Assembly: GCA_020053795.1 (NCBI GenBank)
Contig: JAGVMN010000024.1
Span: 1-41,704, forward strand
Reading direction: 5' to 3'
DNA: 41,704 nt
Origin: Bacteroidia bacterium
GTDB taxonomy: Bacteria; Bacteroidota; Bacteroidia; NS11-12g; UBA9320
A model generated the notes under the pieces. The model made no database searches and was not told where the DNA came from. It worked only from the letters and a program-made list of their open reading frames with translations. A program made the position numbers and the translations under genes. Shown in pieces: positions 15,508 to 17,782 of the stretch (positions are counted from its first letter, which is position 1; every line of letters starts with the position of its first letter).

Positions 15508-16097
15508 ATGAAACAAGCAGGCAGAAAAGACAAAAAGCGAGTTTTAGAAATTCTCACGAAAACATTTGATCAGGTGCAGGGCATCCAATGGTTGGTTAAG
15601 GGTGATGATAAAAAAGAAAAAAAGCTTTGGCCCTTGCCAACTATACCTTCGAAAAAGCTTATGCCCGTAGGGGTGTATTCCTTTCGGATGACGAAACCGG
15701 AGTGGCACTTTGCTACCGCAATCATACCGAATGCAATTTCTTCACAGATAGTTGGAATGAAATTAAGCTCATGTTCTATGCTTTCAGCATTTTCCGGATA
15801 CCAGCTATAAAAGCCCGTGAGTGTTATCGTCAACAGATAAGGCCTAAAGATGACTACTATTATTTCTGGATGCTGGGCGTATTGGACGAAGGTAAAGGCC
15901 GGGGTGCGGCAAGAGAACTGAAAAATACAATGTTTCAAAAAGCCGATGCCGAAGGGTTGCCCATATATGCCGAGACCTCTATGGAAAGCAATTGCCGGGT
16001 TTATGAATGGATGGGTTTTGAACTCTACCACTTTTGGGAAGTGGAACAAAAAGACATTCGTTTTTGGTTTATGAAGCGGGAGCCCGCAGCATCATAA
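15508..16097 (+). pseudogene. GNAT N-acetyltransferase split by a -1 shift at an A-tract
   Basis: ATG 15508 opens a frame encoding MKQAGRKDKKRVLEILTKTF up to the A-tract at 15618-15624. After that the frame loses any acetyltransferase pattern. The -1 frame from 15624 continues at once with ALANYTFEKAYARRGVFLSD, FWMLGVLDEGKGRGAARELK (acetyl-CoA loop, Q/RxxGxG/A type) and AETSMESNCRVYEWMGFELYHFWEV, and ends at 16097. Joined, this is a normal 196-residue GNAT of the type common in Bacteroidota. Either one A has been lost from an eight-A run (mutation or sequencing error), or expression depends on -1 slippage at A AAA AAG. The substrate is unknown. The gene is followed by 68 bases and then the ATPase gene. 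Confidence 0.75.
15618..15640 (+). promoter_or_regulatory. Slippery heptamer A AAA AAG with short downstream hairpin
   Basis: In the upstream frame the codons are GAA AAA AAG, so A AAA AAG (15618-15624) is in the exact phase used for -1 frameshifting in dnaX and many IS elements. A hairpin TTGGC, loop CCTT, GCCAA (15627-15640) follows after only two bases, closer and weaker than usual stimulators. The downstream frame is precisely the -1 frame. Confidence 0.35.
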
Positions 16098-16128: not shown

Positions 16129-16161
16129 TTTGGAGGTAGGAATTTTTATGTAATACATTTG
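16129..16161 (+). promoter_or_regulatory. Bacteroidota-type promoter of the ATPase/Toprim-like cassette
   Basis: TTTG (16129-16132), a 21-base spacer, TACATTTG (16154-16161). The -7 box is only four bases before ATG 16166, so the message would be leaderless or nearly so, or translation begins at a later codon. Confidence 0.5.
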
Positions 16162-16165
16162 CATT

Positions 16166-17158
16166 ATGATAAATCATCTAAGCATCAAGAATTTTAAATC
16201 TATCAAGCATTTGCAAATGCCTTGCAAAAAGTTGAATGTCTTTATCGGTGAGCCAAATAGTGGCAAAAGCAATATTATTGAAGCTTTGGCTCTTCAAAGC
16301 CAGAACTCTTTATCGAGTGAATTGAATAGAGATATTTTCCGATACAAAACGATGGGTGATATTTTTTACGATTCGAACATTAATTTACCGATTGAAGTAG
16401 TCACAGATCAAAAGAGTTCAACCTTGTTTTATTCAATCCGCGAAGACAATACTCCCGACAACCAATTCCATTTTTTGCTGAATCGATATGACGTATCAGA
16501 AAAAAATAATCCAACTATGATTGGACATGATGGGAGAATAATAAATTACGGAAAAAATGGCAAAACAGATGTCAGATATTATGAATACAAAAGACTCTCT
16601 GGTTTCAGCCAAGATTCTGTACCGCATTTGAGCGTTCCATTTGGTAAAAATTTACCTGGATTACTTTTATCAAATGCTGCTTATAATGACTGGGTCTCTG
16701 AATTTTTTCAGACAAAAGACCTAACATTGACATTAAAACCTACGGAGAATGATTTGGCATTAAGCAAGTTAATCGGTAATAGAATTTACAGTTATCCATA
16801 TTTCACAGTTTCAGAGACGCTTCAAAGAGTGGTCTTTTGTACGATGGCTATTATAAGTAATGCAAACTCTGTTTTGCTTTTTGACGAACCTGAAACCAAT
16901 ACATTCCCTTTTTACACGAAAATTTTAGCTGAACGAATAGCGTTAGATGAAACAAATCAATTCTTTATAACTACACATAATCCGTACTTGTTGTTGAGCC
17001 TAATTGAAAAATCAAAGTTCAATAATCTGAATGTTTGTATTGTTCAAATGAAGGATTATGAGACTAATGTAAAGGTGCTGAATGAAAAACAGGTATCTCA
17101 GGTTCTTGATTTCAATTCCGATGTTTTTTTCAACTTCGACAAAATTCTTGATAAATGA
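16166..17158 (+). CDS. AAA/ABC-type ATPase of an OLD-like defence pair
   Basis: The 330-residue SMC/OLD-like ATPase starts INHLSIKNFKSIKHLQM, the classic beta-strand opening of AAA_15/AAA_21 proteins. Walker A is GEPNSGKS at 28-35. A SETLQR signature-like segment at 216-221 precedes Walker B SVLLFDEPE (Asp240, Glu241), and the switch His271 is in TTHNPYLL. The middle (about 60-200) is a short lid region without coiled coil. There is no C-terminal Toprim domain, unlike single-chain OLD nucleases. The next gene overlaps by ATGA and encodes a Toprim-like small protein, so the two probably act as one complex. The pair ends shortly before the 3' end of tRNA-Val. Phage defence is an inference from family and context. 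Confidence 0.85.
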   Translation: MINHLSIKNFKSIKHLQMPCKKLNVFIGEPNSGKSNIIEALALQSQNSLSSELNRDIFRYKTMGDIFYDSNINLPIEVVTDQKSSTLFYSIREDNTPDNQFHFLLNRYDVSEKNNPTMIGHDGRIINYGKNGKTDVRYYEYKRLSGFSQDSVPHLSVPFGKNLPGLLLSNAAYNDWVSEFFQTKDLTLTLKPTENDLALSKLIGNRIYSYPYFTVSETLQRVVFCTMAIISNANSVLLFDEPETNTFPFYTKILAERIALDETNQFFITTHNPYLLLSLIEKSKFNNLNVCIVQMKDYETNVKVLNEKQVSQVLDFNSDVFFNFDKILDK

Positions 17159-17610
17159 AACAGGTACATGTAGAATGTAAACCTGATGAAGCGTTGGTTA
17201 AAAAACTTGGCTTTACCAGAAAAGAGGTGGTCCATCATTCTGGAAAATCACGAGTTTTTCATCAGCTAAAATCATTAAAAAACCAATTAGCAATGGTTGA
17301 TGAAGACCCGGGTAGTGCTAAAACCACATATGAGAAAGACCTCGTATTTATTGAGGAACTTCACAGCATTAAAATTTATTCTGATGAACCGGGGAATAAG
17401 GTTTTAATCTTAAAGGGAAAGTTAGAAGACTGGATTGTTAGTCTCTGCAAAAAGTCTGGGGTGAATCTTGTAAATTTTGGTTTACCCGAAAAGCCGAACG
17501 AATTACACAGTGTTATTATTCAACGTATGATTCAGTACGAAGAATTGATAGACAATCTTTTGAAAATCAATAATGCTGAGTTGAATCAATTGAAGAAATG
17601 GCTGAGGTAA
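17155..17610 (+). CDS. Toprim-like partner of the upstream ATPase
   Basis: The 151-residue protein is translationally coupled to the ATPase (ATGA at 17155-17158). Its start, QVHVECKPDEALVKKLGF, resembles the Toprim opening strand with a conserved Glu (Glu7) and a downstream Asp. AMVDEDPG supplies an Asp49-x-Asp51 pair as in the Toprim DxD motif. A third strand (NKVLILKGKLEDWI, 81-94) and a helical tail (IIQRMIQYEELIDNLLKI) complete a compact Rossmann-like fold. If correct, it would be the metal-dependent nuclease subunit of a split OLD-type system. The glycine after the first Glu is replaced by Cys, so activity is uncertain. It could also be a DUF4276/DUF4435-like relative; I cannot separate these by eye. 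Confidence 0.7.
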   Translation: MKQVHVECKPDEALVKKLGFTRKEVVHHSGKSRVFHQLKSLKNQLAMVDEDPGSAKTTYEKDLVFIEELHSIKIYSDEPGNKVLILKGKLEDWIVSLCKKSGVNLVNFGLPEKPNELHSVIIQRMIQYEELIDNLLKINNAELNQLKKWLR

Positions 17611-17674: not shown

Positions 17675-17699
17675 CAAAAAAGCCTTCCAAAGAAGGCTT
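17675..17699 (-). terminator. Terminator of the tRNA-Val transcript
   Basis: An eight-pair stem AAGCCTTC / GAAGGCTT with loop of four (17680-17699), followed on the minus strand by a run of T (17681-17675). It lies nine bases beyond the tRNA 3' end. Confidence 0.8.
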
Positions 17700-17707
17700 C
17701 AATTTTG

Positions 17708-17782
17708 TGGGAGTTGAGGGATTCGAACCCCCGACCCATTGCTTGTAAGGCAATTGCTCTGAACCAACTGAGCTAAACTCCC
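17708..17782 (-). tRNA. tRNA-Val (anticodon UAC)
   Basis: The minus strand folds as a full cloverleaf. Acceptor GGGAGTT/AACTCCC, D arm GCTC/GAGC, and anticodon stem ATTGC/GCAAT with loop CTTACAA (anticodon TAC). The T arm is GGGGG-TTCGAAT-CCCTC, with discriminator A. CCA is not encoded. It is followed by its own terminator. The 3' end faces the ATPase/Toprim-like cassette, a common integration position, but I found no duplicated tRNA end. Confidence 0.96.

Follow-up and report, generated by a model that had tools for sequence, protein, structure and literature searches.

In the PARIS system, AriA senses a viral protein and then releases AriB, a Toprim nuclease that cuts tRNA (PMC9122126, PMC12409363). 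AbiL and the AAA/TOPRIM_OLD pairs combine a toxic Toprim protein with an ATPase that neutralises it (PMC10440598). A split ATPase/Toprim layout is already known from PARIS (OLD class 4) and AbiL. In contrast, the two parts are fused in OLD (class 1), Gabija GajA (class 2) and retron OLD (class 3). Septu (PtuAB) also consists of an ATPase and a small nuclease encoded by two genes.

The gene pair described here is found in a window of 41,704 nucleotides (the whole stretch of DNA that was analysed) from a Bacteroidia bacterium, contig JAGVMN010000024.1. Like PARIS, the pair places an OLD-type ATPase and a separate, probable Toprim nuclease in adjacent genes, and it shares with AbiL and the NetFlax AAA + TOPRIM_OLD pairs a bicistronic arrangement of ATPase and effector. 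Its ATPase domain is related to those of OLD classes 1 to 3, but its Toprim-like part is separate and minimal. The pair family represents a compact variant that is not recognised by current gene catalogues.

Layout of the gene pair

Table 1. Features of the gene pair and its downstream flank (window coordinates)
Feature	Position	Strand	Description
Promoter, Bacteroidota type	16130-16161	+	TTG-N21-TACATTTG; predicted from pattern match and position
ATPase gene	16166-17158	+	330 aa, OLD/AbiLi/AriA-like, ABC-type, without Toprim domain
Small gene	17155-17610	+	151 aa, probable minimal Toprim-type nuclease (from sequence and structural model)
Hairpin	17679-17700		terminator-capable on either strand; separates the pair from the convergent tRNA-Val
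tRNA-Val	17707-17782	minus	convergent to the pair

The two genes overlap by an ATGA (17155-17158). About three chance matches to the promoter pattern are expected per strand in the window, making a match alone weak, so the evidence for this promoter is its position. The match ends 4 bases 5' of the ATPase ATG and the transcript should therefore be nearly leaderless. One promoter and a near-leaderless transcript are thus predicted for the pair. An earlier, preliminary description had proposed overlapping genes behind a near-leaderless promoter, and the open reading frames, the overlap and the promoter match agree with it. It had also put the end of the pair about 100 bases from the 3' end of tRNA-Val; the distance from the small-gene stop codon is 96 bases. 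The intervening hairpin is predicted to be able to terminate transcription of both the pair and the tRNA gene. Integration at the tRNA gene was considered and rejected. No tRNA-end repeat was found near the pair and no tRNA gene is present within 3-18 kb around the other pair loci scanned, so the tRNA-Val is not evidence for an integrated element. Just upstream of the pair is a GNAT acetyltransferase-like ORF (15627-16097) with a weak Pfam match (20.9 bits; cut-off 20.7).

The ATPase and its small partner

The ATPase contains Walker A (GEPNSGKSN), Walker B (LLFDEPE) and a switch His (in ITTHNPY), all of which are kept in an alignment of 12 relatives, with the Walker B Asp often replaced by Glu. 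A conserved S/A-D/E-T-L-Q-R stretch occupies what we take to be the expected position of the ABC signature. Matches to Pfam AAA_15 (7e-19) and AAA_21 (9e-14) exceed the cut-offs; no NCBIfam equivalog cut-off was reached. Among the PADLOC models, the ATPase matches NsnB (2.8e-20), AriA (3.5e-20) and AbiLi (1.7e-15) and is also near the HEC-01A and retron ATPase-Toprim models. Both the AbiLi and AriA models match 12 of 12 ATPase relatives, with the lowest E-value (2e-29) for AbiLi, and the ATPase resembles PtuA of Septu as well. No Toprim domain was detected by Pfam and the protein stops after the switch His region. These results uphold the preliminary assignment to an OLD-type ATPase that has all three motifs and lacks a Toprim domain.

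In the ATPase tree, all 12 fall into a single clade (SH-aLRT 99) that is distinct from the OLD ATPases. They also separate from the DUF4435-linked (PARIS) ATPases, whose small number and long branches in the sample do not allow the exact sister group to be fixed. AbiLi is not represented in this tree, as the flanks available around the sampled RloB genes contained no ATPase above the threshold. In addition to its distinct clade, the pair differs from OLD classes 1 to 3 in having no visible helicase or reverse transcriptase partner. No helicase is located beside the pair in the window, and no GajB-like gene was recognised by eye among the neighbouring ORFs of relatives.

The small protein has no match in Pfam, NCBIfam or PHROGs and none by sequence in the PDB, and the window's own 151-residue protein matches no PADLOC model. 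It contains the motifs VHVEC (E7) and VDEDP (D49, D51), which the preliminary description had read as a Toprim-like Glu strand and a DED pair, tying this reading to the conservation of the acidic residues. E7 and V34 are invariant in an alignment of 42 relatives; for D11, D49 and D51 the number of relatives with the residue is 41 each, and for E91 it is 40. The order of the conserved residues, a Glu followed by DxD, matches that of the Toprim motifs. Position 8 is Cys in 40 relatives and Gly in two (L070 and L194), and the canonical Toprim E-G is therefore present within the family.

An AlphaFold2 model of the protein (pLDDT 96.5) has the order b-a-b-a-b. E7 follows strand 1 and D49/D51 lie where strand 3 ends; beyond this core come a hairpin, one more strand and a helix starting around E91. 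The model of a second member has a similar order of elements, with strand 2 unassigned. The model and the conservation together give the layout of a Toprim domain: a conserved Glu after strand 1, DxD after strand 3 and a b-a-b-a-b core.

Profile comparison points in the same direction. HHalign of the small-protein profile against DUF4435/AriB, a profile built from proteins gathered from related genomes, aligned E7, D11, G30, V34 and D49xD51 in register (a common E..D, G, V, DxD order) with a score of 26.6 but a probability of only about 12%. The maxima for 100 column shuffles per set were 19.2 and 15.6, the reversed profile scored 12.9, and DUF4435 against RloB, which are known relatives, reached only 22.2. 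Against RloB, the probability for the small protein was about 2% and the alignment was out of register; comparison with the profiles of OLD Toprims and RloB produced no convincing alignment, with scores that barely exceed those of shuffles. Member L070 matches the PADLOC AriB model over residues 8-64 (E 4.3e-4).

Foldseek returned no significant match for two confident models searched against the PDB, or for one searched against viral structures. With the second model, the C-terminal region of Xanthomonas OLD (rank 6, E 0.67) and GajA chains (ranks 23 and 32, E up to 1.2) appeared, all with low TM-scores. Without a significant match, the Toprim fold is probable and not proven. The Foldseek result, together with the lack of a Pfam match, would fit a different alpha/beta fold, such as an adaptor or another hydrolase regulated by the ATPase. 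The motif order, the register with AriB, the members with EG..D and the match of L070 to the AriB model argue against another fold, which is quite unlikely. From its sequence and predicted structure, the small protein is probably of Toprim type; motif order, register and the L070 match speak for the Toprim-like partner proposed earlier, and Foldseek gives it no support.

The pair is filed neither as PARIS nor as AbiL, although its layout resembles both, because the small protein matches neither DUF4435 nor RloB. PARIS is further defined by an ATPase that responds to an anti-restriction protein and sets free the tRNA-cutting AriB. The DUF4435 domain carried by the PARIS partner (PF14491) has no match in any of 39 small-protein members, and the PARIS partners sampled are mostly about 280-310 aa long, compared to about 150-190 aa for the small protein. 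The small protein is also shorter than RloB, the AbiL partner; no RloB (PF13707) match was found among the small-protein members. Septu is distinguished by its nuclease, as neither PtuB nor HNH models match the small protein.

Distribution and proposed function

The preliminary description had named co-occurrence across genomes as a check on the pair. The small gene lies directly behind the ATPase gene in 40 of 40 distinct loci, including one in an archaeal pleolipovirus; the pairing is real and far beyond chance. Relatives of the small protein were found in two MAGs, one family member and the archaeal pleolipovirus; in a scan of one family, 39 of 223 genomes had a relative. Across the phylum, the small-protein profile was positive in 8 of 396 genomes, and a search with the ATPase alone found 9 of 396, the same eight and one more (G486). 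In the latter, the gene downstream of the ATPase encodes a divergent small partner with FIEGYLDES and IIDDDK (E 1.5e-16 against the small-protein profile). One locus that at first seemed unpaired (L026) starts right at the edge of its contig, with the C-terminus of the ATPase still present. In one MAG (L002, 3938-4198) a stop cuts the small gene to 86 codons, which may indicate a pseudogene or an assembly error.

The viral copy is gp15-gp16 of Geoglobus ahangari pleomorphic virus 1 (L005, 5020-7174). It is flanked by two genes for HxlR-type wHTH regulators, and gp16 is annotated as hypothetical. From Bacteroidota to an archaeal virus, the two genes stay together. The pair had no match in the plasmid collection, and scans of viral contigs with alignments A2 and A4 found none. 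Carriage by an archaeal virus recalls old of phage P2 and, by this analogy, suggests virus-virus competition.

The pair most likely serves as a compact module for virus defence or growth arrest. By analogy with PARIS, AbiL and the AAA/TOPRIM_OLD pairs, the likeliest mechanism is one in which the ATPase restrains the nuclease. The ABC-type ATPase would bind the small Toprim-type nuclease and keep it inactive or positioned, until a viral trigger or a shift in nucleotide state frees or activates the nuclease. The nuclease, with a putative metal site formed by E7, D11, D49, D51 and perhaps E91, might then cut host RNA (e.g., tRNA) or DNA, which would halt growth or virus replication. A compact split-OLD effector module, with an ATPase that first restrains and then activates the small nuclease, has a slightly better than even chance of being correct. 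Alternatively, the two proteins could stay bound to each other in a constitutive complex and nick or degrade invading DNA in the manner of OLD and Gabija, with the ATPase as nucleotide sensor and no released toxin. The matches of the ATPase to OLD, GajA and retron ATPase-Toprim models and the carriage of both the pair and P2 old by viruses are consistent with such a DNA nuclease, but the small protein is closest to AriB, a tRNA nuclease, and not to the OLD Toprims, making this alternative unlikely.

Neighbourhoods and turnover at the metG site

The preliminary description had tentatively grouped the pair with the OLD, Gabija and Septu defence systems and regarded its ATPase and nuclease as separate but coupled proteins. 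The split adjacent genes, their overlap and the constant pairing bear out a separate ATPase and coupled genes, with the nuclease itself remaining probable. An affinity to OLD, PARIS and AbiL is supported as well. A defence role is plausible: carriage by a virus and turnover and divergence at a fixed site in another genus speak for it, and the housekeeping-like neighbours, with no defence island, speak against it. The genes around the pair in 18 neighbourhoods, named by eye from their translations, appear to be housekeeping genes, including methionyl-tRNA synthetase-like, methionine synthase-like and mnmE-like genes, and a defence island was rejected on this basis. In one case (L074, 4667-9149), a 2-oxoglutarate dehydrogenase E2-like gene borders the pair on one side and a dihydrolipoamide dehydrogenase-like gene on the other (also named by eye).

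Genus g60, which belongs to another family than the genome of the window, contains two lineages of the pair. One is located between metG-like and SDR/epimerase-like genes and the other beside a metH-like gene, with a fasciclin-like gene opposite in three loci. Two g60 genomes possess both copies (L067 and L068; L069 and L070), each at its own fixed site, and the copies within a genome are 37% identical in the ATPase and 26-31% in the small protein. At the metG site (L068, L070-L073 and L083 compared), the flanks are mostly 88-96% (metG) and 73-88% (epimerase) identical between genomes, and the cassette between the same genomes diverges far more, with 47-68% identity in the ATPase and 39-75% in the small protein.

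The pair is present at 13 of the 30 g60 metG loci examined and absent from 17. Most of the pairless loci retain a remnant consisting of the promoter region and the first ~20 ATPase codons (MENTTPNTNNFLNWVEIKNFN*), and many of these remnants share one junction with the epimerase start. A decayed end of the small gene is retained in L171, L173 and L178, another form of decay is seen in L169 and L170, and L188 has no recognisable remnant. Presence and absence change at least seven to eight times on the metG tree, and presence does not cluster significantly on it (58 of 500 shuffles were as low); since metG is linked to the pair site, its tree is no clean species tree. Exchange of full and scar alleles and repeated loss are both possible explanations.

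Location among housekeeping genes, and at sites that are fixed in related genomes, would also suit a cellular role outside defence, for instance in maintaining the chromosome or controlling the cell cycle. The archaeal OLD protein Cran1 offers a precedent, a caution that cellular roles are possible for OLD proteins (PMC12796447). Against this, the pair is patchy (8/396 phylum genomes), changes in presence at least seven times within g60 without clustering on the flank tree, is unusually divergent at a fixed site and is present in a virus. A cellular role is improbable, and turnover and divergence at the metG site are more in keeping with a conflict module than with a housekeeping one. More tentatively, and with somewhat less than an even chance, the pair may constitute a distinct split-OLD class whose stand-alone Toprim effector is unusually small. 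This class would be common to Bacteroidota and an archaeal virus and toggled in g60 as full and scar alleles replace each other at a single chromosomal site.

The pair adds an unannotated and very compact two-gene family, with a distribution that crosses domains, to the split ATPase-Toprim systems, and its 151-residue effector would suit as a model of how an ATPase controls a Toprim nuclease. Genus g60 represents a natural experiment: with full, decayed and scar versions of one site, it lets one track directly how such a module is lost, is exchanged and diverges rapidly. Nine metG-site loci (L161, L163, L166, L167, L172, L175, L180, L182 and L185) are scar alleles in which the promoter and ~20 ATPase codons are fused, at a junction common to them, to the epimerase start. 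In most of these nine, the stop of the short frame overlaps the epimerase start codon, and translational coupling is possible.
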